Below are positions 8,711 through 32,399 of a stretch of DNA of 49,780 bases, in pieces. Origin of the DNA: Candidatus Celaenobacter antarcticus. Its GTDB lineage: Bacteria; Cloacimonadota; Cloacimonadia; JGIOTU-2. Location of the stretch: assembly GCA_030765865.1 (NCBI GenBank), contig JAVCDK010000038.1, positions 1 through 49,780 of the forward strand, written 5' to 3'. The notes under the pieces are model-generated. The model did not search any database. It was not told the origin of the DNA and saw nothing but the letters and a program-made list of their open reading frames with translations. Within the stretch, counting starts at the first letter, position 1; every line of letters begins with the position of its first letter. The translations under genes and the position numbers were made by a program.

Positions 8711-9883
8711 ATGAAAGATAAAATTTTACTTAGTTTGAAGTTACTACTGGTCATTCTGTTCGTTGTTGTTGGTTCAATTATTTCTGTGCGATTGTGGTCA
8801 GGAAAAGGAGAGAAACTCGCAAAGCCAGCCGAACTCATTATCAAAAGCAATATGACCATTGCAGAAATCGGGAAAGCGAATGATATTGAGAATATCGTAC
8901 TTAAGAAAGCATTTGGACTTCAGACAAAAGAAGAACTGAAAAGGAATTTCTCAGAATTCTCACTCACGCAGGAAGAAGCGATAAGCAGGATAAACAAATT
9001 TATGGCGCTGCAAGCAGAAGATGCTTCTAAGAATTGGATGAAAATTGTCATCAAGTTCGGTCTCTGGGTTGCTTTCCTGATCTTCATGTTTGTGATGGTG
9101 AAAAAGAAAAAAGTCAAAACTACAAACAGGAAATGGTTCTATTTCATCGCAGTGATGATATTCGGCGTAATCCTCAGCGCAGATCCCTCACCGATGGGAA
9201 CTATAAAAGATAATTTCACACTCTTTGGCGCTTACCATGTCCTTTTCCCGCCAAGGTTGGTCGCTCTCGCACTCATGCTGCTCATGGTAATTCTCGCGAA
9301 TAAATTCATCTGCTCGTGGGGATGCCAGCTTGGCACCTTGCAGGATCTTATCTTCAGGATAAACAAAGATAATAAAGGAAAGCCGGTTGTTCCACAGATT
9401 AAAATTCCATTCATTATAACCAATACAATACGAATTATATTTTTCATCATATTTGCCGCAATTGCCCTGATCTGGGCTTTTGATATTATTGAACCCGTCG
9501 ACCTTTTTAAAATATTCAAGCCGGCAACACTCGGCATTATTGGAATTATTTTTGCAGCGATTATTTTCAGTTTATCATTGGTCGTATATCGTCCATGGTG
9601 CCATTTATTTTGCCCGTTCGGACTGATTGGCTGGATCGCAGAAAAGATCAGTCTGAACAATATTAAGGTTGATTATGATAAATGTATTGCATGCGGAACG
9701 TGTATAAAAAAATGTCCCTCAACTGTGATGGAAGCAATCATAAAGCATAAGAAAACGATCCCCGATTGTTTTTCGTGCGCGTCCTGCATAGAGAGTTGCC
9801 CTGTCGATGCGATCAGTTTCAACAGCGGGAAACGTGCAAATCCGCCGAAAGAGATTTTAGAGAAACTAGGGGAGAAAGGTTAA
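8711..9883 (+). CDS. Membrane-bound polyferredoxin protein (NapH/CcoG-like 4Fe-4S protein)
   Basis: A 390-residue membrane electron carrier. It has a signal-anchor-like helix at 7-27, a soluble segment at about 35-110, and then roughly five hydrophobic helices. CSWGCQLG (C201, C205) and CHLFCPFG (C297, C301) are the paired CxxxC(P) motifs of the Fer4_5/NapH group. Two classical 4Fe-4S sites follow: C325, 328, 331, 335 and C353, 356, 359, 363. It probably transfers electrons between the membrane and a periplasmic or cytoplasmic partner, which cannot be named. Its 5' end is duplicated at 7198. Confidence 0.85.
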   Translation: MKDKILLSLKLLLVILFVVVGSIISVRLWSGKGEKLAKPAELIIKSNMTIAEIGKANDIENIVLKKAFGLQTKEELKRNFSEFSLTQEEAISRINKFMALQAEDASKNWMKIVIKFGLWVAFLIFMFVMVKKKKVKTTNRKWFYFIAVMIFGVILSADPSPMGTIKDNFTLFGAYHVLFPPRLVALALMLLMVILANKFICSWGCQLGTLQDLIFRINKDNKGKPVVPQIKIPFIITNTIRIIFFIIFAAIALIWAFDIIEPVDLFKIFKPATLGIIGIIFAAIIFSLSLVVYRPWCHLFCPFGLIGWIAEKISLNNIKVDYDKCIACGTCIKKCPSTVMEAIIKHKKTIPDCFSCASCIESCPVDAISFNSGKRANPPKEILEKLGEKG

Positions 9884-9967
9884 GTGTGGAGTGTTCCGCC
9901 TTCATTACATTACGCCGCGATAAAAGGTTGAAAGGCTAGAAGGTTAGAAAAACCAAAATAAAAAAAG

Positions 9968-9995
9968 GGGAGAAAGCTCGTAAGAACTTTCTCCC
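9968..9995 (-). terminator. Hairpin with minus-strand T tract (orphan terminator)
   Basis: GGGAGAAAG (9968-9976) and CTTTCTCCC (9987-9995) pair over 9 bp with a 10-nt loop. Read on the minus strand the stem is followed by CTTTTTT, so it has terminator form in that direction, although no minus-strand gene is recognisable upstream. On the plus strand it lacks a T tract. Confidence 0.45.
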
Positions 9996-10019
9996 GACTT
10001 TCCTTGAGCGGAAAGAGAA

Positions 10020-10091
10020 GATGTATCTGATTGGGTTTTGGGGTCCAATCAATAATACATCAAGGAGGGAATTATGAGGACTTTAATATAA
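10020..10091 (+). promoter_or_regulatory. Structured leader with strong ribosome binding site and a 5-codon frame
   Basis: GATGTAT (10020-10026) pairs with ATACATC (10055-10061), and GATTGG (10029-10034) with CCAATC (10045-10050), forming a two-part hairpin. AAGGAGGG (10062-10069) then leads to ATG at 10074, but the frame encodes only MRTLI before TAA at 10089. This is either a leader peptide or, more likely, the 5' relic of a lost gene. Confidence 0.35.
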
Positions 10092-10202
10092 GGTTATTAT
10101 GATAAATGATGTCAAGAAAATGATATAACGGGTTGCGGGTTGCAAGAATTACATTACAGCGTGACGAAGAAGGGACCAACCCGGAAGCTGATCCCATGAG
10201 TA

Positions 10203-10245
10203 TCAATCTCAGATTCTTCATGCTCATTGAGTTAACTGAGATTGA
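10203..10245. repeat. Perfect 10-bp inverted repeat
   Basis: TCAATCTCAG (10203-10212) and CTGAGATTGA (10236-10245) are exactly complementary with a 23-nt loop. No T tract follows on either side. Role unknown. Confidence 0.6.
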
Positions 10246-10457
10246 ACAAAAGAACACCATAATTATATGGTAAATTTATAGAATACAATGTTATAAAAAT
10301 GTCAAGAAATATGCTGGGATAAGAAAGAATTGACAAAAAGGTGAAGAAATTAAATAAATGTTTCAACATTGAGGTGAATACTGTTTTTACAAATGAAAAT
10401 GAGCGGAAATAGATGTGGAAGTAATAAAATGAATAAAAAAATAGAAGAAAAATGACG

Positions 10458-10550
10458 AATAATCTAAAAGCGAAATCCCCGACATATGTCGTAGACACCA
10501 CGAATTTGGCTGAGTTCACGACATTAATGGCGGGGATACAACCGTTATGC
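10458..10550 (+). mobile_element. attC-like site, partly degenerate
   Basis: GTTATGC at 10544-10550 matches the G/TT-initiated integron core site. It follows a nested imperfect stem: ATCCCCG (10475-10481) with CGGGGAT (10531-10537), and inside it ATGTCGT (10486-10492) with ACGACAT (10518-10524). The expected 5' partner of the core is only approximate (GAATAAT at 10458-10464). The AlbA_2 gene starts 24 bases after the core, the spacing expected for the first gene of a cassette. Confidence 0.45.
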
Positions 10551-10573
10551 ACAACCCAAAAACAGAGTACTAA

Positions 10574-11704
10574 ATGAATCTTGAATCTGAAATATTAAGC
10601 TTAATAGAATCTAAAATAGAAGGTGATTACTGGGATTTTAAGCAAGAACCCCACGATAATAAAGCTTCTCTTCTGCATGATATTCTTTGCATGTCGAATA
10701 GCCTTCACCGCGGAAATAGATTCTTAATTTACGGAGTATCAGACCCCAAAGTGGGAACCGAAGTAATTGGATTAACTAGAGAGCAGAACGGTCGGAAGAC
10801 ACAAGTCAAGTTCATAGATTTCTTGAGGACTAAACCATTTGCAGGTGATTGCCGTCCAGAAATAGAGCTACATACATTAGAGATTTATGGTAAAGAGATT
10901 GATGTTTTAATAATATTTGATAATCCGTTAAAACCATATTATTTAACAGAGGACTACAGAGATAAAGATAAAAATGTAAAAGTTAATTCTATCTATACAC
11001 GAACAAATGATACAAATACACCAATTGATAAATCTGCAGATGTTGGAGTCATAGAAAAAATGTGGATACAAAGGTTTGGGCTTGACTTATCTCCATTAGA
11101 ACGAATGAAATTATTATTGCTTCAACCGAAAGAATGGTTTAAAGACATTGGGAATAAAACATATGCCTACCATCTAGATTTTCCTGAATTCAGGATAGAA
11201 TTTTCCGAGGTTCATGAGTTTTGGGAAGTTTTTAGTTTCTTTTTTACAAATGAAAAATCATACTTAGGAACTGCTACTTGCAAATATCACTCAACAACAC
11301 TTTTTGAGCTCGAGTATATGTATTGTGACGAGATGAGAATAGAATTATCTGTTCCTAAAACTGCATATGTCAAGTTGAAGAATTCTGAAAATTGGTTTTA
11401 TTATTACAATCTTGAGGAATTAGACGGAATATTCCTGTATTTTATGACAAACGGATTGACGCATTTGCATTCAAGAAGTCCTGCATTCCCTTTTGTTTTG
11501 TTTAACAATAAAGTGCAGATGAAAAAATTCATAGAATACCTTGAAGCAAATGAGAATAATTTGAATAAAATAAAGCCAGACTTTTATGCAGAACATGCAA
11601 AAGACAGAATGAAAAAACAGGATAAAAATTCAGTTATTGACCCTCTATTTATTGATAGGGTAATACAGTTGAACAAAAAATGGGCAGGGCATAACAATGT
11701 ATAA
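10574..11704 (+). CDS. AlbA_2 (Schlafen-type) domain protein, probable integron cassette gene
   Basis: A 376-residue protein. Residues about 8-135 match the AlbA_2 / Schlafen-type putative nucleic-acid-binding domain: EGDYWDFKQEP, then ILCMSNSL....NRFLIYGVSD in place of the usual small-residue/glycine stretch, and VGLTREQ. The C-terminal half (about 170-376) is not recognised. The weak ribosome binding site, its position between two attC-like sites and a stop codon lying inside the downstream attC arm all fit a promoterless cassette gene. AlbA_2 proteins occur in transcription control and in defence loci; the role here is unknown. Confidence 0.75.
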   Translation: MNLESEILSLIESKIEGDYWDFKQEPHDNKASLLHDILCMSNSLHRGNRFLIYGVSDPKVGTEVIGLTREQNGRKTQVKFIDFLRTKPFAGDCRPEIELHTLEIYGKEIDVLIIFDNPLKPYYLTEDYRDKDKNVKVNSIYTRTNDTNTPIDKSADVGVIEKMWIQRFGLDLSPLERMKLLLLQPKEWFKDIGNKTYAYHLDFPEFRIEFSEVHEFWEVFSFFFTNEKSYLGTATCKYHSTTLFELEYMYCDEMRIELSVPKTAYVKLKNSENWFYYYNLEELDGIFLYFMTNGLTHLHSRSPAFPFVLFNNKVQMKKFIEYLEANENNLNKIKPDFYAEHAKDRMKKQDKNSVIDPLFIDRVIQLNKKWAGHNNV

Positions 11705-11818
11705 AAATAATAGCCGAGATAGTAGTAAATTAAGGTATTGTAGCACGCTTCAACTTTATTGTAACTTGAAAGGGATGAAGCCCGCAATCGGCTACTATTC
11801 TTATACTAAACGTTATGT
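11689..11818 (+). mobile_element. Integron attC recombination site
   Basis: The outer core GCATAAC (11689-11695) is complementary at 6 of 7 positions to GTTATGT (11812-11818). Inside, TATAAAAATAATAGCCGA (11700-11717) pairs with TCGGCTACTATTCTTATA (11788-11805) at 16 of 18 positions. Spacers between core and stem are 4 and 6 nt. The centre holds a further GCTTCA/TGAAGC stem. Length (130 bp), core sequences and imperfect long stem are those of attC sites of the VCR-like class. The upstream gene's stop codon lies within the 5' arm. Confidence 0.75.
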
Positions 11819-12015
11819 AAAAAAAGGAAAAAAGAAAAGAATAATTATGAAAAATTGTACGAAGTACATATACACGCAAAAATTGGGAGTATCCCCGAAA
11901 TTTTTGGTAGATTTATTGGTGATATCACCGAACATGTTCGGGGATACATTCATTAGCAGAAATATAGTAAATAGCTAAATAAAAGATTAATGTTTTGAAA
12001 AAAAGGGATAATGTA
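11819..12015. other. Non-coding leader of the caspase cassette
   Basis: Together with the attC site this makes a gap of about 310 bases between the AlbA_2 and caspase genes. It contains the perfect hairpin at 11889-11947. A Shine-Dalgarno-like AAAGGGAT lies just before the caspase gene. Open frames here are short, repeat-derived and not gene-like. Confidence 0.5.
11889..11947. repeat. Perfect 11-bp inverted repeat sharing its arm with the 10475 hairpin
   Basis: GTATCCCCGAA (11889-11899) pairs exactly with TTCGGGGATAC (11937-11947); the loop contains the palindrome GGTGATATCACC. The arm core ATCCCCGA/CGGGGATAC also forms the stem of the attC-like site at 10475-10537. It may be a degenerate attC whose core has decayed (CATTAGC follows at 11951), or another repeat family. 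Confidence 0.5.
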
Positions 12016-14259
12016 ATGCGTAGATTTATAAAAATCGTACTTTGTATTTTATGTATATTGTTGTTAACTTCAACGGTATATGGGAAAAAGAAGAAAATTA
12101 ATGCTTCTGATAAATTGATCATTCATTTCTCAAGAGAAGGATTTTATCCTCTAACATCTTGGCAGTATGCACATGGTTGTAAAGAGGAAACTAAATATGA
12201 GGATTACCTATGGTATGAATTCAATGATTGGTTTTTTGAGGGAACCATCTGGGAGACACAGATTGTTTTAAAAACTAAGGAACCAGGAAATTATGATTTG
12301 ATTATAAAACCTTTTTTTAACATCAATGTTATTAAAAGTGGAAAAAATTGGAAATATTCTTGGGATATTACATTGGATATATATAACTTTTCTGACACTA
12401 AATTATTTACTATAAAGCGTAATATTACAAAATATTTCGATCGTCATTATGGACCAGGAGATCTAATAGCTAAATATATGAGAGATGATTCTCAAATAAC
12501 TTCAATTGAAAATGAATTTATTGCACATCCCCTATTTATGCTTGCAACCTTTTGGAAAAATGAAAATTCTAAACTGTCATCAAAAAATAATAAAAACTCA
12601 TCAATAATCTGGAATGGATACTCCTGCGAAAATAATAATAGTTCAATTCAAGACCCCTTTTCTAAAATCAGAGAAAATATCCAAAAACAAATTGATGAAT
12701 ACTTAACACCAAGAAATCCTGTTGATATTAACTCGAGAATTCCAAATATAGTGAGTAAACCTATACTTCCTGATTTACCAAAATTAGTGAAAGGACAATT
12801 TGAAACAATAACTATGTTTGATGAACGTGTTAGAAAAGCAATGGATGAAAGACAAATTCAAATGGATGAAAGACAAATTCAAATTGTTGAACTTCAAGAA
12901 AAATATCGAATTGATGTTGAAAACCGGAACAAAATAATTGAAAATTTACAAATAGAATACAGCAATGATTTGGAAAAAATTAAGAATGAACAAAAATTAA
13001 AAAAAGACATACTTACCCAGAAAATTAACGAATTTACTCAAAAATCATTTTTCGAAGTAATGGGCTTTCCTTTACTAGAAAATCCTGTTTATGATTCAGA
13101 GACTGAGATCATGTATGTTGATTTAAAAGCTTCAAATGCTGACTATCAGAAGAAAATTGCATTGAATTTACCCCTTTCAGAAGCAGAAACATTTTATAAT
13201 AATGTAAAAGCAGAATACGCAATGCCAATAGTAATATATTCAATTGAAGAAAATTCTATTAATCTAAATCAAATAAAAATCTACTCTAATGAAAAATTTT
13301 ACTCGGCTACTTTGACTGATGAAGATTTTGAACCAGAAATATTTGAAATAGCGTTAGAAGATAAAAAAGTAGAATTTGATTCTGAGCAGCAAATATACTT
13401 AGAATTACAAAACCCCAACCTTATAGATACTTATCGAGTAAGTGCAATCCAATATGGAGAGAACCCTGAATCAAAAGGAATAGAATATGATGATGATTTA
13501 ACTCCCATTATTGATAAATTAGAGAGAAAACCTGAAGATTCAAGAAATTGGCTTTTCATTATTGCAGTGGAAAATTATGATGAAACAGATCCTGTGATCT
13601 TTTCTAAAAACAGTGCTGTGCTTTTTAAAAAAACTGCTCAGAAAGTATTCGGAATAAAAGATAGAAATACTTATGCATTAATAGAAAATGATGCAACAAG
13701 TGGAAAAATCAAAGATAAACTACAACGTTTATTTGATAATGTCAAAGAAGGAGATGTAATTTATTTCTATTATAGCGGTCATGGTGTTCCAGTGCCACAA
13801 ACTGAAGACTCTTTTATCTTACCTAAAGATAAAATTGTGGATTATATTTCAAAGGAATCCGAATTCAATTTATCTAACATTTATAAGAATCTCTCAGATT
13901 CAAAAGCTGAAAAAGTATTTGTATTTATTGATGCTTGTTTTAGTGGTAAAACTGATAATGTCCCAATTTTTAAGGGTGTTGCTCCCGGTCTAATCAAAAC
14001 TAAGAAAATTCAGTTTAATAAAGACAAAATGGCAATAATTACAGCTGGCAAAGACAATCAATTCTCAAATAGTTTTGATGAAAAGGGTCATAGAATGTTT
14101 AGTTATTATCTCATAAAAAGTTTGGCAGAGAGAGGAGACATTGAAATAAATTTGCTATATAAAGATATTAGTGTTAAGGTTCATGACACATCTTTTGAAA
14201 AAGGTGATACTTATATTCAGGAACCACAGATTTATGGTAATAAAAAATTGAAACTGTGA
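12016..14259 (+). CDS. Secreted caspase-fold (C14) peptidase with coiled coil
   Basis: A 747-residue protein with an N-terminal signal peptide (residues 1-22, MRRFIKIVLCILCILLLTST then VYG). Residues about 40-210 are an unrecognised beta-rich domain. A coiled coil at about 265-345 contains a duplicated heptad unit (MDERQIQ twice). A middle domain follows, and the C-terminal caspase-like domain covers about 505-747. The catalytic dyad is visible: H589 in YYSGHGVP and C641 in FIDACFSGK. The ATG at 12016 has AAAGGGAT upstream; a TTG at 11995 is in frame but less likely. It pairs with the following DUF4384-type gene (14-base gap). Substrate unknown. Confidence 0.85.
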   Translation: MRRFIKIVLCILCILLLTSTVYGKKKKINASDKLIIHFSREGFYPLTSWQYAHGCKEETKYEDYLWYEFNDWFFEGTIWETQIVLKTKEPGNYDLIIKPFFNINVIKSGKNWKYSWDITLDIYNFSDTKLFTIKRNITKYFDRHYGPGDLIAKYMRDDSQITSIENEFIAHPLFMLATFWKNENSKLSSKNNKNSSIIWNGYSCENNNSSIQDPFSKIRENIQKQIDEYLTPRNPVDINSRIPNIVSKPILPDLPKLVKGQFETITMFDERVRKAMDERQIQMDERQIQIVELQEKYRIDVENRNKIIENLQIEYSNDLEKIKNEQKLKKDILTQKINEFTQKSFFEVMGFPLLENPVYDSETEIMYVDLKASNADYQKKIALNLPLSEAETFYNNVKAEYAMPIVIYSIEENSINLNQIKIYSNEKFYSATLTDEDFEPEIFEIALEDKKVEFDSEQQIYLELQNPNLIDTYRVSAIQYGENPESKGIEYDDDLTPIIDKLERKPEDSRNWLFIIAVENYDETDPVIFSKNSAVLFKKTAQKVFGIKDRNTYALIENDATSGKIKDKLQRLFDNVKEGDVIYFYYSGHGVPVPQTEDSFILPKDKIVDYISKESEFNLSNIYKNLSDSKAEKVFVFIDACFSGKTDNVPIFKGVAPGLIKTKKIQFNKDKMAIITAGKDNQFSNSFDEKGHRMFSYYLIKSLAERGDIEINLLYKDISVKVHDTSFEKGDTYIQEPQIYGNKKLKL
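12841..12882 (+). repeat. Perfect 21-bp tandem duplication in the coiled coil
   Basis: The unit at 12841-12861 is repeated exactly at 12862-12882 and adds one heptad (MDERQIQ) to the coiled coil. Identity at every third-codon position indicates a recent event or a variable repeat. Confidence 0.9.
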
Positions 14260-14273
14260 AATTGGGGTAATCA

Positions 14274-15269
14274 ATGAAACAAACTTTAATTTTTGTAATT
14301 TTAATTTTCTCTTTCAGCTTATTGTTCGCTTCACAACCAGATTGGTATCGTAAATTATCTCAGAAAGATTTTGAGATCATCGGTTATGGTAGCAGTAAAG
14401 ACCTCGAAGAAGCAAGATCTATGGCTAAAAAAGAAATTGCAAATTCAATTCAAGCTCAAATAATTTCTGAAAACATTTTTGAAACTTCCGAAATTAATAG
14501 CGTCGTGAGCGAGAAAGCAAACCTGTATTTAGCAGCAAAAACTGATGTTGTTTTAAGTGATCTGAAAACTATCAAAGAAGAACAAAAGAAAAAGGTTTGG
14601 TATGTAGCCCTATGTTATGACAACCTTCCAATTGAGAAGAAATTTGCCCAGAAAGTATCATTATCAAAGCATAAATCAGAAAATCAGAATAAATATTTTA
14701 TTAAATCACCCTTAATACAATCAATCAATGAAGAATTGAATTGTATTTTGGACATCAAATTAAAAAGAAAGAATAAGATTTGGTATTTGGCTTATGGAAA
14801 TGTTATGCTACCATTATGCCCTGATGAATTTGAGAAATTATTTATTAGCTATGAATCAGAAAATATTTCAATAATTCCATCTAAATCTTCAGTTCTTACA
14901 GAAGGCGATGTTTTTTCTTTTTCAATTGAATCAAAAAAGAATGGTTATTTGTCTATAATTAATGTATATGAAGACGGCGAATGTTTTATCATAACTTCTA
15001 ATCAACCAGTGATGACTAATCAACTTATCAGTATTCCCGATAAATCTTCCGATAATGAATTAATTGCAGGATTGTTTACTGAAAAACAACCAACTTACGA
15101 CTTATACGTAGCTCTATTTGATAACAAAGAAATTAACCTCAGTAGATTACAAACTGCAGGGAGCAAAATTGAAAAAGAAGAATGGCATTATAAATTTAAT
15201 GAAGTTTTAGAGATGATGAATGAATACGAATTTTGCACTGTTTTAATAAGAACAAGACCAAAAATGTGA
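14274..15269 (+). CDS. Exported LPP20/DUF4384-like partner of the caspase protein
   Basis: A 331-residue protein with a signal peptide at 1-19 (hydrophobic core, SLLFAS). Residues about 20-120 resemble the LPP20 lipoprotein fold (PDWYRKL, IIGYGSSKDLEEAR), although no lipobox cysteine is seen. Residues about 205-310 resemble DUF4384 (FSIESKKNGYLSIINVYEDG and the later DLYVALFDNKE). DUF4384 domains are often associated with bacterial caspase-fold proteins. With the preceding gene this forms a two-gene exported module that seems to have arrived as one cassette. Function unknown. Confidence 0.7.
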   Translation: MKQTLIFVILIFSFSLLFASQPDWYRKLSQKDFEIIGYGSSKDLEEARSMAKKEIANSIQAQIISENIFETSEINSVVSEKANLYLAAKTDVVLSDLKTIKEEQKKKVWYVALCYDNLPIEKKFAQKVSLSKHKSENQNKYFIKSPLIQSINEELNCILDIKLKRKNKIWYLAYGNVMLPLCPDEFEKLFISYESENISIIPSKSSVLTEGDVFSFSIESKKNGYLSIINVYEDGECFIITSNQPVMTNQLISIPDKSSDNELIAGLFTEKQPTYDLYVALFDNKEINLSRLQTAGSKIEKEEWHYKFNEVLEMMNEYEFCTVLIRTRPKM

Positions 15270-15324
15270 TTATGCCAACAAGCGTGACCACGCGAAAAAA
15301 TGCTTGGTGCAAGCCAAACATTAT
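15270..15324 (+). mobile_element. Possible degenerate attC end of the caspase cassette
   Basis: GCCAAC (15274-15279), then CAAGC/GCTTG (15279-15283 and 15302-15306), then CAAACATTATAT resemble an attC whose G/TT core has become ATT. The overall pairing is weak, so this is tentative. Confidence 0.25.
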
Positions 15325-15519
15325 ATGAAGAAATTGAAAAGATATGTTTTAGTTGTTTGTATGATTTTGATGGGTTGTAGGTGTGTGAGAGCTGATAATC
15401 TAAAAGTGCATTTTATTGATGTGAGGTAAGGGGACGCGATATTGGTGCAGTATGAGGGAGAGAATTATTTGATCGACTCGGGGCGGAATTTGAGCTCGGA
15501 TAAGCTGATAAATATGTAG
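15325..15519 (+). pseudogene. ComEC-like metallo-beta-lactamase fragment with nonsense mutation
   Basis: The frame reads as an N-terminal signal peptide (MKKLKRYVLVVCMILMG) followed by LKVHFIDVR, a stop at 15427, then GDAILVQYEGENYLIDSGRN. Family members have FIDVGQGDA here, so the apparent GGG-to-AGG and CAA-to-TAA changes destroyed the motif. The frame ends at 15519 after about 64 codons, with the metal-binding HxHxDH region missing. It is a dead remnant of a secreted metallo-hydrolase. Confidence 0.7.
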
Positions 15520-15609
15520 CCACTATTCGATTTCCTCCGAGGTTTTTTTAAAAAAGCACGGAATCAAAATCGAATTCGTGCTTTTATTTATGTTTGGGGG
15601 TTAAGAGAT
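15520..15609. other. Non-coding tail between the dead fragment and hppA
   Basis: Only the bidirectional hairpin at 15550-15586 is evident. With 15270-15519 this makes a stretch of about 340 bases without an intact gene. Confidence 0.5.
15550..15586 (-). terminator. Terminator downstream of hppA (bidirectional form)
   Basis: GCACG (15556-15560) pairs with CGTGC (15577-15581), extended inward by AAT/ATT across a bulged base. A-rich and T-rich flanks on both sides give a T tract in each direction. It sits 29 bases beyond the hppA stop on the minus strand. Confidence 0.65.
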
Positions 15610-20285: not shown

Positions 20286-20308
20286 TTATTTTCGTGAGAG
20301 GATTTTAA

Positions 20309-20830
20309 ATGTTAGAAAAGGAAGTTGAAAAGAGATTTGGGTTGAAAAACTTTTTATATCTCTTTTTCTTTTTGATTGTTATATGGCTTGCCCTTACCAC
20401 AACATTTCAATGGCAAGAACTTATTGTCGGTATTTTCATCAGTTTGGTTCTCGCATTATTTTTAAATAAGAACTATATTGAATTAGGACTTCCTTCTTTA
20501 ACCATAAAAAAAGTCGCATTTATTATTGTATATATATTTGTCCTTTTTACAGAAATAATAAAAGCTAATTTTGATGTAGCATATAGGGTAATTCATCCAA
20601 AGATGCCGATAAAACCAGGAATTGTAATCATCAAGACAGAATTGAAGCAGGATATTGCCAAAATGATTCTGGCAAATTCGATTACTTTGACTCCTGGCAC
20701 ATTTACGCTGGACATTAAAGGGGACAAGCTTCTTATACATTGGATATATGTCCGTTCCGAAGGTATAGAAGAGTCTACAAAAAATATTGGTGAACGATTT
20801 GAAAAATATTTAAAGGTGATATTTGCATGA
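20309..20830 (+). CDS. mnhE: Mrp-type antiporter subunit E (complex A)
   Basis: A 173-residue membrane protein with two or three N-terminal helices and a cytoplasmic domain carrying the family pattern NFDVAYRVIHP then KPGIV, and LANSITLTPGTFTLDI. It belongs to the seven-subunit Na+(K+)/H+ antiporter module. It is the first gene of the AT-rich complex A block. GAGAGG precedes the ATG. The flavoprotein at 20841 follows closely. A paralogue sits at 41201 in complex B. Confidence 0.9.
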   Translation: MLEKEVEKRFGLKNFLYLFFFLIVIWLALTTTFQWQELIVGIFISLVLALFLNKNYIELGLPSLTIKKVAFIIVYIFVLFTEIIKANFDVAYRVIHPKMPIKPGIVIIKTELKQDIAKMILANSITLTPGTFTLDIKGDKLLIHWIYVRSEGIEESTKNIGERFEKYLKVIFA

Positions 20831-20840
20831 AGGATTTATT

Positions 20841-22193
20841 ATGTGTAAAAAAGAGATATTGATTATAGGCGGAAGTGCAGCAGGTATTACTGCCGCTATT
20901 ACTGCAAGAAGATATTATTCGGACGCTAGGATTACTATCATTCGTAAAGAAAAGGAAGTCTTAATTCCTTGTGGTATTCCATATATTTTTGGAACTCTTG
21001 GGTCGGCAGAGGAAGATATTATTGCTGATACTGTGCTATCAAAAAATAATATAGAGCTGATTATAGACGAAGTCATTTCTATAAATAAAGGCAACAGAAT
21101 TGTTAAAACTGCTGATGGGAAAACTCTTAAATATGATAAAATGATTTTAGCAACAGGGTCTTCGCCATCTATACCACCGATACCTGGCAGTGATATTGAG
21201 AATGTATTTCCTATAAAGAAAGAAATAAATTATATAAAGAAAATTCTAAGTAGAGTAAATGTGTCAAAGAATGTGTTAATAATCGGCGGCGGATTTATTG
21301 GTCTTGAGTTTGCTGATGAATTAAACAAAAAGAAGAATTTAAATGTTACAGTAATAGAACTTCTCCCATATTGTCTTCTTTTGGCCTGTGACGATGAATT
21401 TTGTAAAAAAGTAGAAAAAGCACTTATAGATAGAGGTATTAATCTATTAACTGAAAGAAAATCAAAAGCAATTTTAGGAGATAAAAAAGTAGAAGCTGTA
21501 GAATTAGAAAATGGTCAAAGAATCAATGCGGATTTAGTAATTTTGTGTACTGGGATTCATCCAAATATTAATTTAGCATTAAATGCTGGTTTAATGGTAG
21601 ATCGAAGAAAGGGTATAGTGGTTAATGATTTCATGATGACAAGTGATAATAATATTTTTGCTGCAGGTGATTGTACTCAAAAAAGATGTTATCTTAGCGG
21701 GGCACCGATTGTAATGGGATTAGCATCTATAGGTTCTACTCAAGCCAGGATAGCAGGAGCGAACTTATTTGGAGTCCGCCGAAGAATGGAATGTGCTGTT
21801 GGCATATTTTCTACACGTTTTGGTGAACTTGCGGTAGGTTCTGCCGGATTGACCCAGAGAGCTGCAGAAGGTAATAATATCGATGTGATAATAAGCCAGG
21901 CGATTGCACCAGATAAACATCCGGGTTATCTTCCTGAGACTTGTGAGACCGGTGTAAAATTGATTTTTGAAAGGGATACAGGTTTACTTATAGGTGGACA
22001 GGTTTATGGTGGCGCATCAGTTGGAGAATTAATCAATTTTATAGGTTCTCTTATCCAAACTAAAAAAAGGGCAGATGAAATATGTACTTTCCAAATAGGC
22101 ACTCACCCTTTATTAACCGCTTCCCCGATGGCATATCAGATTATTAATGCATCTCAAGTTGCTTTAACAGATTTGAGAAAAGTGAGGTTATAA
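20841..22193 (+). CDS. CoA-disulfide reductase/NAD(P)H:sulfur reductase-like flavoprotein
   Basis: A 450-residue pyridine-nucleotide-disulfide oxidoreductase. It has an FAD motif GGSAAGITAAI (10-20), an active-site-like cysteine C44 in IPCGIPY, an NAD(P) motif IIGGGFIGLEFADEL (about 150-164), and FAD contact NIFAAGDCTQ. C44 corresponds to the redox cysteine of CoA-disulfide reductases and NSR-type elemental sulfur reductases (usually CGLPY). A single-base overlap with mnhF and a position between mnhE and mnhF place it inside the operon. A TTG at 20823 is in frame, but ATG at 20841 with AAGGAT is preferred. The substrate may be CoA disulfide, polysulfide or oxygen. Confidence 0.85.
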   Translation: MCKKEILIIGGSAAGITAAITARRYYSDARITIIRKEKEVLIPCGIPYIFGTLGSAEEDIIADTVLSKNNIELIIDEVISINKGNRIVKTADGKTLKYDKMILATGSSPSIPPIPGSDIENVFPIKKEINYIKKILSRVNVSKNVLIIGGGFIGLEFADELNKKKNLNVTVIELLPYCLLLACDDEFCKKVEKALIDRGINLLTERKSKAILGDKKVEAVELENGQRINADLVILCTGIHPNINLALNAGLMVDRRKGIVVNDFMMTSDNNIFAAGDCTQKRCYLSGAPIVMGLASIGSTQARIAGANLFGVRRRMECAVGIFSTRFGELAVGSAGLTQRAAEGNNIDVIISQAIAPDKHPGYLPETCETGVKLIFERDTGLLIGGQVYGGASVGELINFIGSLIQTKKRADEICTFQIGTHPLLTASPMAYQIINASQVALTDLRKVRL

Positions 22194-22450
22194 TGGATTC
22201 AACATTGCTTGTTTTTATGGTAATTATAGGAATAGGCATTTTTCTAAGTTTTTTGCGTATGTTAATTGGTCCTACTGCATCTGATAGAGCTGTTGCAGTT
22301 GATACTATTACCACAACTGTAGTTGCTTTACTGGTTCTATTAGGTTTTGTTTTCAAAAGATATGTTTACCTCGATGTTTCACTGGTATATTCTTTATTGG
22401 CTTTTGTTGGACTAGTCGCTATTGCAAGATTTCTGGAAAAGGGGATTTAA
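22193..22450 (+). CDS. mnhF: Mrp-type antiporter subunit F (complex A)
   Basis: An 85-residue three-helix membrane protein with the family signature RMLIGPTASDRAVAVDTI and a C-terminal ARFLEKG. It is part of the Mrp Na+/H+ antiporter module. It overlaps the preceding flavoprotein gene by one base and adjoins mnhG directly, indicating translational coupling. Confidence 0.93.
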   Translation: MDSTLLVFMVIIGIGIFLSFLRMLIGPTASDRAVAVDTITTTVVALLVLLGFVFKRYVYLDVSLVYSLLAFVGLVAIARFLEKGI

Positions 22451-22783
22451 ATGGAATTATTTGGTGTGATAATTACAGGAATTGGTGTAATGTTTTTATT
22501 TCTTGGAAATCTTGGCATTCTGCGACTACCTGATGTTTACAATCGGATTCAAGCAGGGACAAAATGCACAACTCTGGGTGCTGTTCTCACTATTATGGGT
22601 GTTGGGATAATGCAGCCAGCCTGGCTCTGGAAATGTCTGCTTATTGCATTATTTGTTTTGGTGACAAATCCCATTTCCAGCCATGCAATAGCCAGGGGTT
22701 CCCATAAAAGTGGAGTTCCTCTATGTGATAGAAGCGTTGTGGATAAGTCGGAAGAATTTGAGGAATATAAGGAGGAAAAATGA
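22451..22783 (+). CDS. mnhG: Mrp-type antiporter subunit G (complex A)
   Basis: A 110-residue protein with three hydrophobic helices and the typical LGNLGILRLPDVYNRIQAGT segment followed by NPISSHAIARGSHKSG. It is part of the Mrp antiporter module. Its stop overlaps the start of the DUF4040 gene (ATGA). Confidence 0.93.
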   Translation: MELFGVIITGIGVMFLFLGNLGILRLPDVYNRIQAGTKCTTLGAVLTIMGVGIMQPAWLWKCLLIALFVLVTNPISSHAIARGSHKSGVPLCDRSVVDKSEEFEEYKEEK

Positions 22784-23019
22784 TAATTGTGGTTTCTTTG
22801 TTGATAATCTTAATGCTAATTTCCGCAATTGCAGCACTTATTTATAAGGATTTGATTAGTGCAGTGATTGCTGCTTGTATGGTCAGTTTAATAGCAGCAG
22901 TACTATTCTATTTTCTTCAAGCGCCTGATGTAGCGATGGCTGAAGCATCTATTGGAGCAGCATTGGTCACTGCTATATTTGTTATAGCAATCCGAAGAAC
23001 AAGAAGGCATGAAGAATGA
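22780..23019 (+). CDS. DUF4040/MbhD-like antiporter subunit (complex A)
   Basis: A 79-residue protein with three helices and the DUF4040 motif FYFLQAPDVAMAEASIGAAL. It corresponds to MbhD of membrane-bound hydrogenases and to part of the C-terminal extension of MrpA. It stands alone here, whereas in complex B the same domain is fused to the next one. It overlaps its neighbours by 4 bases on both sides. Confidence 0.9.
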   Translation: MIIVVSLLIILMLISAIAALIYKDLISAVIAACMVSLIAAVLFYFLQAPDVAMAEASIGAALVTAIFVIAIRRTRRHEE

Positions 23020-23699
23020 GAAAAATTATCGGTATTATCTTATTAATTATTATTTGTTGGGGAATTATTTTAGCCCTACATAAAATCCCTTTTGGAATAC
23101 CAAAAACAAAAGTTGGCGAATATTATATAGATAAAGGAAGGGAAGAAACGGGAGCTGCAAATATTGTTACGTCAGTAGTAGTTAATTATCGTGGATTTGA
23201 TACACTGGGCGAAGTTACAATACTTTTTTTGGCAGCAATTGGATTGGGAGCTGTTTTGTCGAACTTCAAGGAAAAAGGAAAAAGGAAAATTGAACTGGCC
23301 AGTTTAATACTGAAAACAGGTTGTCGTTTCTTATTTCCTTTAATACTTCTTTTTGGTGCGTATATTTTTATTCATGGACATCTTACTCCTGGGGGCGGCT
23401 TCCAGGGGGGAGCTATTATTGCGTCCGCTTTCCTTCTCGTTTATCTTGGTTGCCGTGGAAGGATATTCAATGAAGTTGGTTGTAAAATTACTGAATCCCT
23501 AAGCGGTTTGGTTTTTATCGTGATGGGATTAATTGGTTTGACAGTTGGGGGACACTATTTTCTATCCAATTTCATGCTGACAGGTCAGATAAATACTTTA
23601 TTCAGTGCAGGCATAATACCAATAATTTATATCGCAATCGGACTGAAAGTCGGTTCGGAATTGACGGGGGTTATTGATAATTTAATGGAGAAAAGTTAA
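23016..23699 (+). CDS. MbhE-MnhB fused antiporter subunit (complex A)
   Basis: A 227-residue membrane protein made of two modules. Residues about 1-90 hold the MbhE-like segment (GEYYIDKGREETGAANIVTS, then NYRGFDTLGEVTILF). Residues about 95-227 form an MnhB domain (IFIHGHLTPGGGFQGGAIIA). In complex B the junction falls elsewhere: MbhD-MbhE fused and MnhB separate. It is part of the antiporter region that couples redox work to ion movement. Confidence 0.9.
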   Translation: MRKIIGIILLIIICWGIILALHKIPFGIPKTKVGEYYIDKGREETGAANIVTSVVVNYRGFDTLGEVTILFLAAIGLGAVLSNFKEKGKRKIELASLILKTGCRFLFPLILLFGAYIFIHGHLTPGGGFQGGAIIASAFLLVYLGCRGRIFNEVGCKITESLSGLVFIVMGLIGLTVGGHYFLSNFMLTGQINTLFSAGIIPIIYIAIGLKVGSELTGVIDNLMEKS

Positions 23700-24058
23700 T
23701 GGATTTTTTATCTAATTATATTTATTACATTGGTGCTTTCGGACTTATATTTATTGGTCTTTTTATTATACTGGTAAAGCATAACCTGATCAAAGTAATA
23801 ATAGGAATAGGCATTCTTGATACGGGGGTAAATCTATTTATCGTTGCTGTGGGTTATATAAGCAAAGGAACTGCTCCTATATTTTCCAAATCCGGTCTCG
23901 ATGCTAAGAATATGGTTGATCCGGTTCCTCAGGCTTTGGTGCTGACATCTATTGTAATCGGAGTTGCGATATTAGCTCTTGCTCTTTCTTTAGCAATAAG
24001 ATTATATCAGCATTACGGAACACTTGATCTTCGTAAGATAAAGGAGCAAAGATGGTAA
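23699..24058 (+). CDS. mnhC: Mrp-type antiporter subunit C, NuoK-like (complex A)
   Basis: A 119-residue three-helix protein homologous to NuoK, with GIGILDTGVNLFIVAVGY and the C-terminal DPVPQALVLTSIVIGVA. Its start overlaps the preceding stop by one base and its end overlaps mnhD by 7 bases. Confidence 0.93.
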   Translation: MDFLSNYIYYIGAFGLIFIGLFIILVKHNLIKVIIGIGILDTGVNLFIVAVGYISKGTAPIFSKSGLDAKNMVDPVPQALVLTSIVIGVAILALALSLAIRLYQHYGTLDLRKIKEQRW

Positions 24059-25521
24059 ATCCTGTTCTGTTAATTGTTGTACCGCTTGTACTTGCTTTTG
24101 CATTACCCTTGGTGGGTTTGATCTCAAAAAAGAATATCAAATATATTCCGGTTCTTGCTTTTCTTTTTAATTTTGTTATTTCATTACTATTAATACCTAA
24201 AGTTCTGCATCAAGCCATCATTGTAAAAATCGGTGGTTTTCTTCCTCCCTTTGGGATCAATCTGTTCGTAGGACCTGTTGGCATTTTATTTTCTACTTTG
24301 ATTGCATTAGCGGGATTATTAGTTTCCATTTACGCTTTATCATATATTAAAGAGGGTTCGAAAGAAAAATACCATATCCTTTATCTTCTACTATTAACCG
24401 GAGCAACAGGTGTAGTTCTTACAGGAGATATGTTTAATCTTTTTGTTTTTTTTGAAATTCTCTGCATTTCATCTTATGCCCTTGTGGCCTATCTCGGGAA
24501 CAAAGCGGGAATTGAATCTTCAATAAAATATCTTATTCAGGGTTCGGTTGGTTCCAGTCTCCTTTTGTTGGGTATAGGTTTACTTTACGGACAATTAGGT
24601 ACTCTTAATATGGCAGACATTGCTAACCAAATTCATTCTTCAAGTTCACCATCGATATTTGTTCCAATGGTACTTATGATAACAGGTTTAGGAGTTGAAG
24701 CAGCAATATTTCCACTTAATGCCTGGCTGCCTGATGCACACTCTTCTGCTCCTTCATCCATTAGTGCGATTCTTTCCGGTATTGCTATTGAAGTGGGGCT
24801 TTATGCTGTAATTAGAATTATATTCACAATATTTAATGCATCAAGTTTCTTGATGTTTTTCATTTTCTTAGGTGTATTAACACTTCTAATCGGTGAGATG
24901 TCTGCATTCAGTCAGAAGAATATAAAAAGAATGCTGGCTTATTCAAGTATTGGCCAAATTGGTTTAATCATGTTTGCAGTTTCGCTTAATACACAATACG
25001 GAGTAAGTGCCGGACTTTTCCAGATGATAAGTCATACTCTCGGCAAAGGGTTATTGTTTTTGGCAGCAGGATATATGATCTATCGCAGCGGTTCTATGGA
25101 TATTTCTTCTTTTGAAGGTATAGGTAAAAAAATGCCTTATACATCATTGGCTTTTACAATTGGTACTTTTTCTATTATAGGATTACCGCCGTTTATTGGA
25201 TTCGCAAGTAAATTTATGGTTATAAAAGCGGCTCTTGCAAAAGAAGGGATAATATTTACCGTTCTTATAGGACTTGCTCTTATAGGAACTATTATTGAAA
25301 GTGCGTATTTTTTCAGAGTTGTGCAGGTGATTTATTTTAAGAAAGGAAATGGAAATCAGGTAAGGAAAGAAGCTCCTATCACTGGATTAATTCCAATGTT
25401 TATATTTGCACTCTTGATAATATTTATCGGAGTTTATCCAAATTTTATAATCAAGATTTTAAATTCAGCGGCTTCAGAGCTTCTTAATCGAATAGACTAC
25501 ATAAGGAGTGTTTTAGGATGA
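24052..25521 (+). CDS. mnhD: Mrp-type antiporter subunit D, NuoN/L-like (complex A)
   Basis: A 489-residue protein with about 14 hydrophobic helices and the proton-conducting subunit signature (FPLNAWLPDAHSSAPSSISA, about 222-241), together with the GEMSAFSQKNIKRMLAYSS segment. One of two antiporter-like channel subunits in complex A. Adjacent genes overlap by 4-7 bases. Confidence 0.93.
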   Translation: MVNPVLLIVVPLVLAFALPLVGLISKKNIKYIPVLAFLFNFVISLLLIPKVLHQAIIVKIGGFLPPFGINLFVGPVGILFSTLIALAGLLVSIYALSYIKEGSKEKYHILYLLLLTGATGVVLTGDMFNLFVFFEILCISSYALVAYLGNKAGIESSIKYLIQGSVGSSLLLLGIGLLYGQLGTLNMADIANQIHSSSSPSIFVPMVLMITGLGVEAAIFPLNAWLPDAHSSAPSSISAILSGIAIEVGLYAVIRIIFTIFNASSFLMFFIFLGVLTLLIGEMSAFSQKNIKRMLAYSSIGQIGLIMFAVSLNTQYGVSAGLFQMISHTLGKGLLFLAAGYMIYRSGSMDISSFEGIGKKMPYTSLAFTIGTFSIIGLPPFIGFASKFMVIKAALAKEGIIFTVLIGLALIGTIIESAYFFRVVQVIYFKKGNGNQVRKEAPITGLIPMFIFALLIIFIGVYPNFIIKILNSAASELLNRIDYIRSVLG

Positions 25522-27377
25522 CTTTGGAACTTTTACTTATAGTTGCTTTTGGCGGTGCATTTCTTACATATTTTTTAGGCAAGATTTCCTCTAGTCTTAG
25601 GAATGGTTTTGCAGTACTCAATGCATTAGCATTAGTGGTTATGACTGCTTTTTTATACGGTCAAACTGTGGAGAAAAATCTCCATTTCGGATTTTTAGGT
25701 ATGCCATTTGTCCTGAGAATAAATATGCTCTCATGGTTCTTTGCTATTACAATTGTTGGTATTGGTCTATTATCAATTATTTATTCTCTTAAATATATAG
25801 AAAATGGGAAAAAGTTGGATTTTTATTATTTTACGACATTACTTATTAATGCCAGTATGTTGGGAACTGTAATTTGTGGTGATTTAATATCATTTTATAT
25901 GTTCTGGGAGATAATGAGTTGGAGCACTTATCTGTTAATAAGTTACAAGGGGGGGGACAAGGCACTTTTTGCTGGAATAAAATATATAATTATGTCAATT
26001 ATTGGATCACTTGCGATGCTTGTTGGTATTATTAGTTTATATACTCATTTTGGGACTCTGGAGATATCAACCTTAGCTATCCAGATACAAGGTGCTTCCC
26101 TAAATTATATTCTCTTCATTTTAATTATGTTCTCTACGGCTTTTATAATTATTAATGCGTTTTGGCCCCTCCATATCTGGCTTCCTGATGCACATGCAGA
26201 AGCTGTATCCCCATTTTCATCAATACTTTCTGCGGTATTAGTAAGAAAAGGTATGTATGGACTCTATCTGTTTATGTATGTTATATTGGGATTAAATATT
26301 CTGAATAGATTAAAATTCGGTTTCATAAGTTTTACTGGAGTATTTTGCTGGATAGGAGCTATTACCATAGTATTTGCAGCATTAACTGCTTTATTACAAA
26401 ATGATTCTAAGAGAATTCTTGCATGGAGTACTGTCGGACAAGGTGGTTATATGATTTTAGGGGTTGCTTTTGTAACTCCTTTGGGAATGGCAGGTGGTAC
26501 ATTTCATATTCTAAATCACTGTATTTATATAGCCTTACTTTTTTTTGTCGCTGGAGCCATTGAATACCGAACCGGAGGTATTAGAGACTTAAATTCACTT
26601 GGTGGTTTGATTAAAAAGATGCCTGTAACTTTTATAGGAGGTTTAGTCGGCATATTTGGTTTAATTGGCTTGCCGTTGACTAATGGTTTCGTTTCAAAAT
26701 GGTTAATATATAAAACATTAATACTTGGAAATCGTCCATTTTTAGCTTTCGCTGCATTTCTGGGTACATGGGGTACTGTTTTATATGGATACAAATTTAT
26801 TCATAATATATTTTTAGGACAGTTACCCGAAAAGTATAAAAATATTAAAGAAGTTCCTTTTACGATGCGAATACCAATAATTATATTAACAATATTGGTT
26901 TTTTTATTTGGCATACTTCCTGGTATTCCTCTAAAAGTAATTAATGCTATTGGTATTTCTTTAGGTTTTGAATCATTAGATGTTACATTATGGGGGATTG
27001 CTTCAGAAACTGGTACATTGAATACTATAAATATTTTTGCTGCAATACTAATCGTTGGAATAATCATTTGGTTAATTTTTAAAGCAGGTAGAAAAGCTCC
27101 CAAAGTTGACCAATATGATAATTATGCTGCTGGTTCAGCTATCCCCAAAAATAAATATAACTACACAGTTGATTATTATTATCCCTTTACTAAAATGATT
27201 TCTCCTTACCTCAAGGATATTTTTGATCTATTTTACACGAAGATTGCAAACACAGTACAGAAACTCTGCAATAGCACAAGAAAAATTTACACTGGATATG
27301 TTGGTAGTTATGTAATGTATATCGTTCTGTTTTTGGCTATACTGATTTTAGTACAATTAAAATGGGGTGTATTCTAA
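25518..27377 (+). CDS. Second antiporter-like subunit, NuoL/MbhH-like (complex A)
   Basis: A 619-residue polytopic protein with PLHIWLPDAHAEAVSPFSSI and ALLQNDSKRILAWSTVGQGG. A C-terminal extension of about 120 residues ends in a further helix (VMYIVLFLAILILVQL). It is homologous to NuoL/NuoM and MbhH and should conduct ions next to the NuoH-like subunit. It overlaps mnhD by 4 bases and the NuoH-like gene by one base. Confidence 0.92.
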   Translation: MTLELLLIVAFGGAFLTYFLGKISSSLRNGFAVLNALALVVMTAFLYGQTVEKNLHFGFLGMPFVLRINMLSWFFAITIVGIGLLSIIYSLKYIENGKKLDFYYFTTLLINASMLGTVICGDLISFYMFWEIMSWSTYLLISYKGGDKALFAGIKYIIMSIIGSLAMLVGIISLYTHFGTLEISTLAIQIQGASLNYILFILIMFSTAFIIINAFWPLHIWLPDAHAEAVSPFSSILSAVLVRKGMYGLYLFMYVILGLNILNRLKFGFISFTGVFCWIGAITIVFAALTALLQNDSKRILAWSTVGQGGYMILGVAFVTPLGMAGGTFHILNHCIYIALLFFVAGAIEYRTGGIRDLNSLGGLIKKMPVTFIGGLVGIFGLIGLPLTNGFVSKWLIYKTLILGNRPFLAFAAFLGTWGTVLYGYKFIHNIFLGQLPEKYKNIKEVPFTMRIPIIILTILVFLFGILPGIPLKVINAIGISLGFESLDVTLWGIASETGTLNTINIFAAILIVGIIIWLIFKAGRKAPKVDQYDNYAAGSAIPKNKYNYTVDYYYPFTKMISPYLKDIFDLFYTKIANTVQKLCNSTRKIYTGYVGSYVMYIVLFLAILILVQLKWGVF

Positions 27378-28312
27378 TGCAAATTTCGGAATTTATTCTA
27401 TCACCACTTTTAGCTTTGATTATTGGTATATTCTTTTTAGGTTTAGCAAGAAAGATAATGGCAAGAATACATTGGCGTTATGGTCCTCCCATTACTCAAC
27501 CAGTTATAGATATTATCAGGATGTTCAGTCAAAAAGCAATAAGTCATGGATCAATATTCAATTTTGGATTAATTTTTTCGTTAACAGGATCTATTGTTGT
27601 CATCTTATTTCTTCCAATCGGGAAAATGTGTCCATTAAGTTCTGGGGGTTTATTGGTAATATTGTATCTTATGCTTTTAGCTCCTTTAGGAATAGCACTA
27701 AGCAGTGGTGAAGCAGCTAATCCTAATTCCAGTATCGGAGTATCAAGAAAATTTCTTCTGGCTCTGGGATATGAGGTTCCGTTTCTGCTTATTCTTCTTG
27801 CAGTTATGGCACATTATCATACTATTTCATTAATTGAAATAGTGAGAATACAAGCAAATACAGGATGGTCTTTTGGTTCTTTACCTTTGGTATTATCTGG
27901 GATTGCTTATTTTTTGATACTTCCAGCTATATTAGGTATGAGACCTTTTGAAATTTCGGGCGCAGCTCAGGAAATTTCTTCAGGTCCAAAGGTAGAATTT
28001 GGCGGAAAATTTTTAGCTTTTTCTACAATACAACATGCCTTACATGAATTTATTGGTATTTCGCTTTTTGTAAATCTATTTCTTGGAGGTTGGGATTTGT
28101 TTGGGATTTTAGAACCCATCTCAAATACAATATGGGGTATTATTTTGGGGATAATCATTTTCTTAATAAAAATGGTAATAATATTTATTATAGAACTTTT
28201 TATAAATGCAGTGTTTCCCCGCTTCAGAATTGAGCAAGCAATGAAATATTTATGGAAATGGCCTACATTATTATCTTTTATCGGGCTTCTTATAGTAGTT
28301 TTATTTAATTAA
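27377..28312 (+). CDS. NuoH/EchB/MbhM-like membrane subunit (complex A)
   Basis: A 311-residue protein with about eight helices that anchors the hydrophilic arm. MARIHWRYGPPITQPVIDI and GMRPFEISGAAQEISSGPKV match the quinone/coupling-site loops of this family. The ATG at 27377 was preferred over 27362 because the family starts at MQISEF and GGGGTG lies 8 bases upstream. It overlaps the previous stop by one base. Confidence 0.92.
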   Translation: MQISEFILSPLLALIIGIFFLGLARKIMARIHWRYGPPITQPVIDIIRMFSQKAISHGSIFNFGLIFSLTGSIVVILFLPIGKMCPLSSGGLLVILYLMLLAPLGIALSSGEAANPNSSIGVSRKFLLALGYEVPFLLILLAVMAHYHTISLIEIVRIQANTGWSFGSLPLVLSGIAYFLILPAILGMRPFEISGAAQEISSGPKVEFGGKFLAFSTIQHALHEFIGISLFVNLFLGGWDLFGILEPISNTIWGIILGIIIFLIKMVIIFIIELFINAVFPRFRIEQAMKYLWKWPTLLSFIGLLIVVLFN

Positions 28313-28330
28313 CAATTAAAGGTAATTTAT

Positions 28331-28888
28331 ATGGATAGAAATAAAATTAGTAAATGGTTGAAAAATCCCGGTAAAATGGCACACAAATATTCATTTCATG
28401 TTGTATATTTTTGTACGGGATGTGGAATTATTGAAATCCCACCTTCTATCACTGCAAGATGGGATGCAGAACGATTTGGTATAATACCCGTAGCTACACC
28501 CAGACAGGCAAACCTGTTTTTAATTACAGGATATGTTTCAACAAAAACATTAAAAGCAATCATAAGAACTTACGAGCAAATGCCTGACCCTAAATATACG
28601 GTTGCATTAGGTTCCTGTCCCATAAATGGTGGAATGTACTATGATTCCTATAATACTATCACAAGCTTGGATAAGTACATTCCTGTAGATGGTTATATCG
28701 CAGGCTGTATGCCACGCCCGGAAGCAATATTTATTGGAGTTACTCATTTATGGAAGTTGATCGATATGGATAAAGCTGACGGATATAAAAGATACAGAGA
28801 AGATTATGTGCATTACCGTGCAAACCAGGAACAACTTTTTGGTGAGTTGGAATGGCCTCCATTATTCATAAAGGAAATAGTAAAATGA
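28331..28888 (+). CDS. NuoB/MbhJ-like small subunit with 4Fe-4S cluster (complex A)
   Basis: A 185-residue subunit carrying the proximal cluster, with cysteines C28 and C31 (FCTGCGIIEI), C96 (GSCPINGG) and C126 (AGCMPRPE). The residues NGGMYYDSYN resemble complex I and group 4 hydrogenase small subunits. All cluster ligands are present, so electron transfer to the large-subunit interface should be intact even though the large subunit has no [NiFe] site. It overlaps the next gene by 4 bases (ATGA). Confidence 0.92.
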   Translation: MDRNKISKWLKNPGKMAHKYSFHVVYFCTGCGIIEIPPSITARWDAERFGIIPVATPRQANLFLITGYVSTKTLKAIIRTYEQMPDPKYTVALGSCPINGGMYYDSYNTITSLDKYIPVDGYIAGCMPRPEAIFIGVTHLWKLIDMDKADGYKRYREDYVHYRANQEQLFGELEWPPLFIKEIVK

Positions 28889-29406
28889 CTGATTTAAAGC
28901 AAATGCTTTTATCCGGGTTTGACGATATTAATATCAATATTCCTGAAGATAACAGAATGGTTGTAAGTACAAAAAAAGAAAGTGTATTATCAATATTAAT
29001 CTATCTGAAAAAATTTGGATATAACCATTTTGCACTTGTTTCTTGTAATGATTGGATTGATGATAACGAGTTTGAATTAATCTATATAGTTTCTGCTTAT
29101 CAAAAAAATGACGAACAATATCAAGATATTGAAAAAAGTAGTATCATAGTAAAAACAAGAATTTCCCGAGAAAAGGCAAAGTTTATAACAATCATAGATA
29201 TTTTTGAAAATGCAGAACCTTATGAACGAGAAATCCATGAAATGTTCGGAATAAATTTTGAAGGACATCCACGATTAACACCGCTAATGCTTGAAAGAAA
29301 TTACAAGATTCCCCCTTTCAGAAAAGATTTTGATACAAATAAATATGTAGAAAACACTTTTGGAAAAATTCCTTCTATTAAAGAAAGGAAAGAAGGAAAT
29401 AAATGA
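28885..29406 (+). CDS. NuoC/MbhK-like subunit (complex A)
   Basis: A 173-residue 30-kDa-subunit homologue with the diagnostic NAEPYEREIHEMFGINFEGHP in the C-terminal half. It starts at 28885 (AAGGAAA upstream); a longer frame from 28852 lies inside the preceding gene and was rejected. It overlaps the large-subunit gene by 4 bases. Confidence 0.9.
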   Translation: MTDLKQMLLSGFDDININIPEDNRMVVSTKKESVLSILIYLKKFGYNHFALVSCNDWIDDNEFELIYIVSAYQKNDEQYQDIEKSSIIVKTRISREKAKFITIIDIFENAEPYEREIHEMFGINFEGHPRLTPLMLERNYKIPPFRKDFDTNKYVENTFGKIPSIKERKEGNK

Positions 29407-30503: not shown

Positions 30504-30522
30504 TAAAAAAATGGAATGATAT

Positions 30523-32382: not shown

Positions 32383-32399
32383 CATCAAAAGGAGTTATT

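Follow-up and report, generated by a model that had tools for sequence, protein, structure and literature searches.

A probable orphaned fragment of an integron-like cassette platform without IntI in Candidatus Celaenobacter antarcticus

Organization of the locus

The subject of this work is a 5.7-kb block in a 49,780-nucleotide stretch of Candidatus Celaenobacter antarcticus (Cloacimonadota; assembly GCA_030765865.1, contig JAVCDK010000038.1, positions 1 to 49,780 of the forward strand), hereafter called the window. The block is an insertion polymorphism: two genomes of the same genus, G112 and G115, have 43 bp and 175 bp, respectively, in its place. It starts with an insertion site (att1), which is followed by a cassette with an AlbA_2-domain gene, a hairpin resembling an integron attC site (11689-11818), a second insertion site (att2), caspase and LPP20-like genes, and a decayed site belonging to a second family of hairpins that is described below (Table 1). 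The results presented here suggest that the block is probably an orphaned part of a cassette platform, integron-like but independent of the integron integrase IntI.

Table 1. Features of the 5.7-kb block and their positions in the window
Feature	Position	Strand	Basis or remark
Block absent from two same-genus genomes	9866-15549		blastn of the window; G112:C31 and G115:C74 colinear with it on either side
att1, recombinase-linked insertion site without recombinase	10438-10548	+	ends CGGGGATACAACC/GTTATGC
R' core GTTATGC, start of cassette 1	10544-10550	+	sequence; crossover at 10544/10545 proposed by analogy with 54 cassettes
Cassette 1	10545-11812	+	start TTATGC is the reverse complement of its own end GCATAA; paralogues elsewhere are cassettes
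SLFN/AlbA_2-domain gene	10574-11704	+	Pfam PF04326, 42.6 bits; PADLOC PDC-S50, E 4.6e-107
attC-like hairpin	11689-11818	+	R'' 11689-11695, arms 11699-11717 and 11788-11806, R' 11812-11818
att2, second recombinase-linked insertion site	11842-11971	+	ends TTCGGGGATACATTC/ATTAGCAG
Probable cassette 2, decayed end	11953-15320	+	from att2 core start to decayed attC-like end
Caspase (Peptidase_C14) domain gene	11995-14259	+	Pfam PF00656, E 1.9e-15
LPP20/DUF4384-like gene	14274-15269	+	Pfam PF02169, E 5.5e-6
Decayed second-family attC-like site	15271-15327	+	CCAACAAGCGTGACCAC...CCAAACATTATATG; below the R3 threshold

Homology of att1 and att2 to sites behind tyrosine recombinase genes

Both att sites are homologous to sites located directly behind recombinase genes in related genomes. 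att1 was identical in 98 of 109 positions (90%) to the site behind the G109 recombinase gene and in 91 of 114 positions to the G114 site, whereas shuffled sequences scored far lower; the same was true of att2, which was identical in 104 of 128 positions (81%) to the site behind the G075 recombinase gene, and which also resembled the sites following a whole recombinase gene (contig C67) and a recombinase remnant (contig C7) of the own genome. Cassette 1 starts at the end of att1, and att2 starts about 24 bases past the 11689-11818 hairpin. Two hairpins of the window (10474-10538 and 11889-11947) were considered as a genome-wide repeat and rejected: the exact pattern is confined to the window, and they are parts of the att sites.

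In intact copies the att site lies approximately 10-40 bases after the recombinase gene. Clade genes with a readable end in the relatives are followed, past the stop codon, by a palindromic site and then by a different gene on the same strand; the palindromic sites after the C67 gene and the C7 remnant both end in CGGGGATACAnACATTA. Many relatives have tandem pairs of recombinase genes before the att site (L224, L217, L216, L223 and L230).

The C67 gene (L009, 7007-8092) encodes a protein of 361 residues. It scored 231 bits with TIGR02249 (cut-off 265), leaving model positions 181-239, the IntI-specific insert, unmatched, and 219.8 bits with NF040815 (cut-off 220), the model of simple XerA/XerD-like tyrosine recombinases. 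In a phylogenetic tree, some branches of which were long, the IntI sequences formed a clade of their own (support 100/99) and the C67 recombinase fell outside it. The identity of the C67 enzyme with IntI was ruled out by the score below the cut-off, the missing insert and the separate IntI clade.

A second family of hairpin sites and the cassette-end rule

Arrays of same-strand genes with intergenic hairpins were found behind recombinases of this clade in G119, G095, G099 and on the own contig C67. A covariance model (R3) was built from twelve sites, which came from these arrays, C7 and one contig of a same-class genome; its L stem showed a strong covariation, with a score of 0.365 as compared with 0.132 after shuffling and at most 0.07 after sliding. 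R3 detected 18 sites at E ≤0.001 (20 at E ≤5) in the own genome. Of the 123 genomes of the phylum 46 had matches, whereas the surroundings of 80 IntI genes from other phyla, 929 kb altogether, gave no match. Sites were present in 20 of the 24 genomes that had the recombinase and in 26 of the 99 that did not (Fisher, 4e-7).

The two site families were compared for the position of the bulged base. In the second family it is located on the 3' arm (75 of 81 sites), where it is a C in 73 of 75 cases, mostly six pairs in, whereas the classical sites of the phylum carry it on the 5' arm (48 of 51). In this tested respect second-family sites are the mirror image of classical ones.

For 54 units lying between successive sites the start was compared with the reverse complement of the end. 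Beyond TTA, a cassette's own start and own end matched over 5.24 bases on average, mismatched pairs over 0.70, and 2000 permutations reached 1.54 at most. Such complementarity of own ends is the mark of units that would move as circles. A little-studied integron-like system without IntI is widespread in this group of anaerobes.

Cassette 1 and its AlbA_2 gene

The AlbA_2 gene of cassette 1 is a candidate phage-defence gene, as suggested by the PADLOC phage-defence candidate PDC-S50, which covers nearly the full length of its product. A paralogue (50% identical) on contig C7 of the same genome is the first cassette of its array, located directly after the C-terminal remnant of a non-IntI tyrosine recombinase that is 91% identical to the C67 enzyme; this cassette has complementary ends of 12 bp. 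A further homologue, in G119, comes after a second-family hairpin. The sequence-only reading had proposed that the GTTATGC at 10544 delimits a cassette carrying the AlbA_2 gene, and the ends of such a cassette could indeed be recognized, but this GTTATGC belongs to the end of an att site of the non-IntI clade.

The hairpin at 11689-11818

The boxes GCATAAC (R'') and GTTATGT (R') lie at the outer ends of an inverted repeat whose arms form 17 Watson-Crick pairs out of 19 on the top strand. The imperfect stem between these cores and the position of the preceding gene's stop codon within the 5' arm, both described earlier from the letters of the sequence, were confirmed. The two A.C mismatches of the top-strand stem are G.T on the bottom strand, for which a fold of -18.5 kcal/mol was calculated (z -4.2, none of 200 shuffles as good), as compared with -13.5 kcal/mol (z -1.6) for the top strand. 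A search for TAAC..(A/G)TTA ends with an adjoining stem of at least 16/19 found one match in the window and none in 100 Markov-shuffled windows. No terminator T-run follows the hairpin, and an Rfam scan matched a tRNA only. The hairpin is real. Its spacers are 3/5 (about 2-4 and 5-7 in the second family), and it has an unpaired C, in an A.C mismatch, at the seventh pair and no bulge there; the second family bulges a C six pairs into the 3' arm.

Relation to classical attC sites was assessed with a scanner calibrated on real integrons. From 80 IntI loci of other phyla 47 attCs were extracted, and a covariance model (R1) was built from 31; it recovered the attCs of held-out integrons. The 11689-11818 site was not matched by R1, even with the filters off. 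With a model retrained on classical attCs of the own phylum (R2), the best match in the window was exactly 11689-11818, at 14.7 bits (E 0.31 per 50 kb, and 0.0098 when the 1.6-kb region was searched). Neither model found a second classical attC in the window. The site has the R'' and R' boxes with complementary ends expected of a classical attC (the cassette's own start being TTATGC) and lacks the extrahelical L-stem base on the 5' arm. Because R1 missed it and R2 scored it weakly, it is at best an aberrant attC.

IntegronFinder 2.0 reports a cluster of attC sites lacking integron-integrases (CALIN) where there are at least two attCs (PMC9024848), and a single attC is termed a SALIN, i.e. a single attC site lacking integron-integrases (PMC12690207). 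The earlier proposal had been a cluster of attC sites without an integrase nearby. There is indeed no integrase nearby, but instead of a cluster the window contains one weak attC-like site and one decayed site.

IntI integrons in the same genome

True attCs were found by R1 on other contigs of the genome, and R2 added more, bringing contig C26 to a total of three. The search for an IntI-type recombinase yielded a broken intI on contig C101 (L010, 614-2082), where a true intI lies in pieces with a GIY-YIG open reading frame in between and classical attCs on the flanks. This locus is a dead integron. The broken gene is 58% identical to the IntI of G115, and two genomes of the same genus have IntI genes above the family cut-off. 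The attCs of the genome, the C101 intI and the IntI genes of the genus show that integrons are present in this group. Integron elements are common in it, and the remark of the sequence-only reading that integrons are little studied in such an anaerobe is apt.

Cassette 2 and neighbouring differences

The sequence AACAAGCGTGACCAC is shared by the decayed site that would close cassette 2 and the end of the AlbA_2 cassette of G119. After the decayed site, at 15326-15516, comes a short piece of a gene that soon runs into a stop codon; a third cassette, now truncated, may begin here. Another large difference within the genus was noted at 20286-32937, a 12.6-kb block that is missing in G112 (about 9 bp instead).

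Discussion

An intact platform of the type envisaged here would consist of a tyrosine recombinase gene, a palindromic att site and co-directional genes, each closed by a hairpin that can fold in single-stranded DNA. If such hairpins fold in vivo, the recombinase would link the att site, between A/G and TTA, with the hairpin of a cassette circle, and the gene would thereby come to lie behind the platform. Two att sites would be left in the window after loss of the recombinase genes: cassette 1 (AlbA_2/PDC-S50) would sit at att1, closing with the atypical hairpin at 11689-11818, and cassette 2 (caspase and LPP20 genes) would start at att2. The whole C67 recombinase could still mobilise the array in trans.

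Several observations weigh against this interpretation. No recombinase gene or remnant was detected in the window by tblastn, which is why the block is called an orphaned piece of a non-IntI platform. The own start and own end of cassette 1 match over just 3 bases beyond TTA. The 11689-11818 hairpin is atypical for both site families: it has no extrahelical base across the 19 positions of its L stem, it was not matched by R3, and it was found, weakly, by R2. The hairpin is assigned to a non-IntI platform on account of the features next to it and of the way in which the homologous AlbA_2 genes behave, and this is the weak point of the argument. As to the second family, kinship is a confounder of its association with recombinase-bearing genomes, and R3 sites and classical sites occur together; an array in G099 (L025, contig C175, 52-5693) has a frameshifted IntI with one classical attC and several second-family sites.

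The strongest alternative is that a classical IntI cassette was inserted away from its integron, leaving a single attC (a SALIN), possibly by attC x attG recombination; attG sites are cited in PMC12901181 as further landing places for cassettes. The R2 match fits this, as do the better fold of the bottom strand, the true attCs and broken intI of the genome, and a true attC in a same-class genome whose ends GCATAACAATG...CGTTATGT are identical to those of the window site. However, R1 found nothing, and the site combines the lack of an extrahelical base with spacers that suit the second family and not classical attCs. Moreover, both borders of the cassette adjoin att sites of the non-IntI clade, and the AlbA_2 paralogues form cassettes within the non-IntI system. 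We therefore consider this explanation unlikely, and the block to be more than a simple IntI CALIN in spite of the integron remains elsewhere in the genome.

It is far less probable still that the hairpin is no more than a common inverted repeat or a structure at the gene end, in which GTTATGC and GCATAAC match by chance. The low scores with all three models and the shortness of the core boxes would agree with such an origin, but no comparable structure arose in the 100 shuffled windows, the T-run of a terminator is missing, the borders fall on att1 and near att2, and in homologous genes the cassette ends are found at the same positions. That att1 and att2 mark two independent integrative elements (recombinase plus cargo) decayed side by side, as their different types only 1.3 kb apart and the tandem recombinase genes of some relatives might suggest, is hardly credible in view of the multi-cassette arrays with matching own ends that several genomes have behind the same recombinases.

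The non-IntI platform shares with classical integrons, CALINs and SALINs the logic of cassettes, sites foldable as single strands, a core of (A/G)TTA with R boxes, same-strand genes and an insertion site adjoining the recombinase gene. It differs from them in its recombinase, which is of the C67 type, without the IntI-specific insert and below the TIGR02249 cut-off, in the second-family sites, which bulge the opposite arm and have spacers of 2/5, and in the location of att behind the recombinase gene. XerA/XerD-like recombinases have a similar catalytic domain, as seen in the near-threshold NF040815 score; unlike these, the C67 clade has an N-terminal extension of about 85 residues and is linked to cassette arrays, not to chromosome dimer resolution.

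The closest known system is that of the recombinase-associated acquired interbacterial defence (rAID) arrays of Bacteroidales, in which a tyrosine recombinase is accompanied by short immunity genes, all in one orientation, with conserved motifs between them (PMC12247911). The arrangement is alike, with the recombinase upstream of co-oriented genes separated by conserved motifs, but in this other phylum the cassettes are longer and more varied (caspase, AlbA_2, ankyrin) than short immunity genes, the hairpins are long and covarying with a bulged C, and in the window the recombinase is lost. The non-IntI system is related to gene arrays of gut Bacteroides. On a Bacteroides ovatus plasmid (L366, 5155-9038) SMI1/KNR4 and Imm26 genes form an array of the rAID kind, in which the hairpins are short and the cassette ends complementary, the runs from TTA (8, 9, 9, 8, 9 and 6 bases) being exact reverse complements. 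In a tree with some long branches, the recombinase of this array falls with the C67 clade and away from IntI.

On plasmid pHH1107 (L362, 4052-6175), the recombinase TnpF, encoded before tet(X3), also falls in the C67 clade. A palindrome ending in CTTGTTATGTGCC lies between the two genes, and an attC-like stretch, GGCTACTAACAAGC...GTACATTAGCTGCC, follows tet(X3). Possibly tet(X3) is a cassette of the non-IntI system; the match between its own ends is weak.

On balance, we favour, with less confidence than the reading of the block itself, the wider view that there is a second class of integrons, defined by a non-IntI recombinase clade and mirror-image hairpins in which a C bulges from the 3' arm. 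It would be common to this phylum and Bacteroidota, would include the rAID arrays and possibly the tet(X3) recombinase, and would escape tools whose training sets were IntI and classical attCs. If this is true, IntI is not the only route to the capture of cassette genes: a recombinase clade distinct from it, having hairpin sites of its own, would move cargo of various kinds, candidate defence genes among them, in anaerobes that show little to classical integron finders, and this would suggest a mechanism behind the conserved intergenic motifs of rAID arrays.
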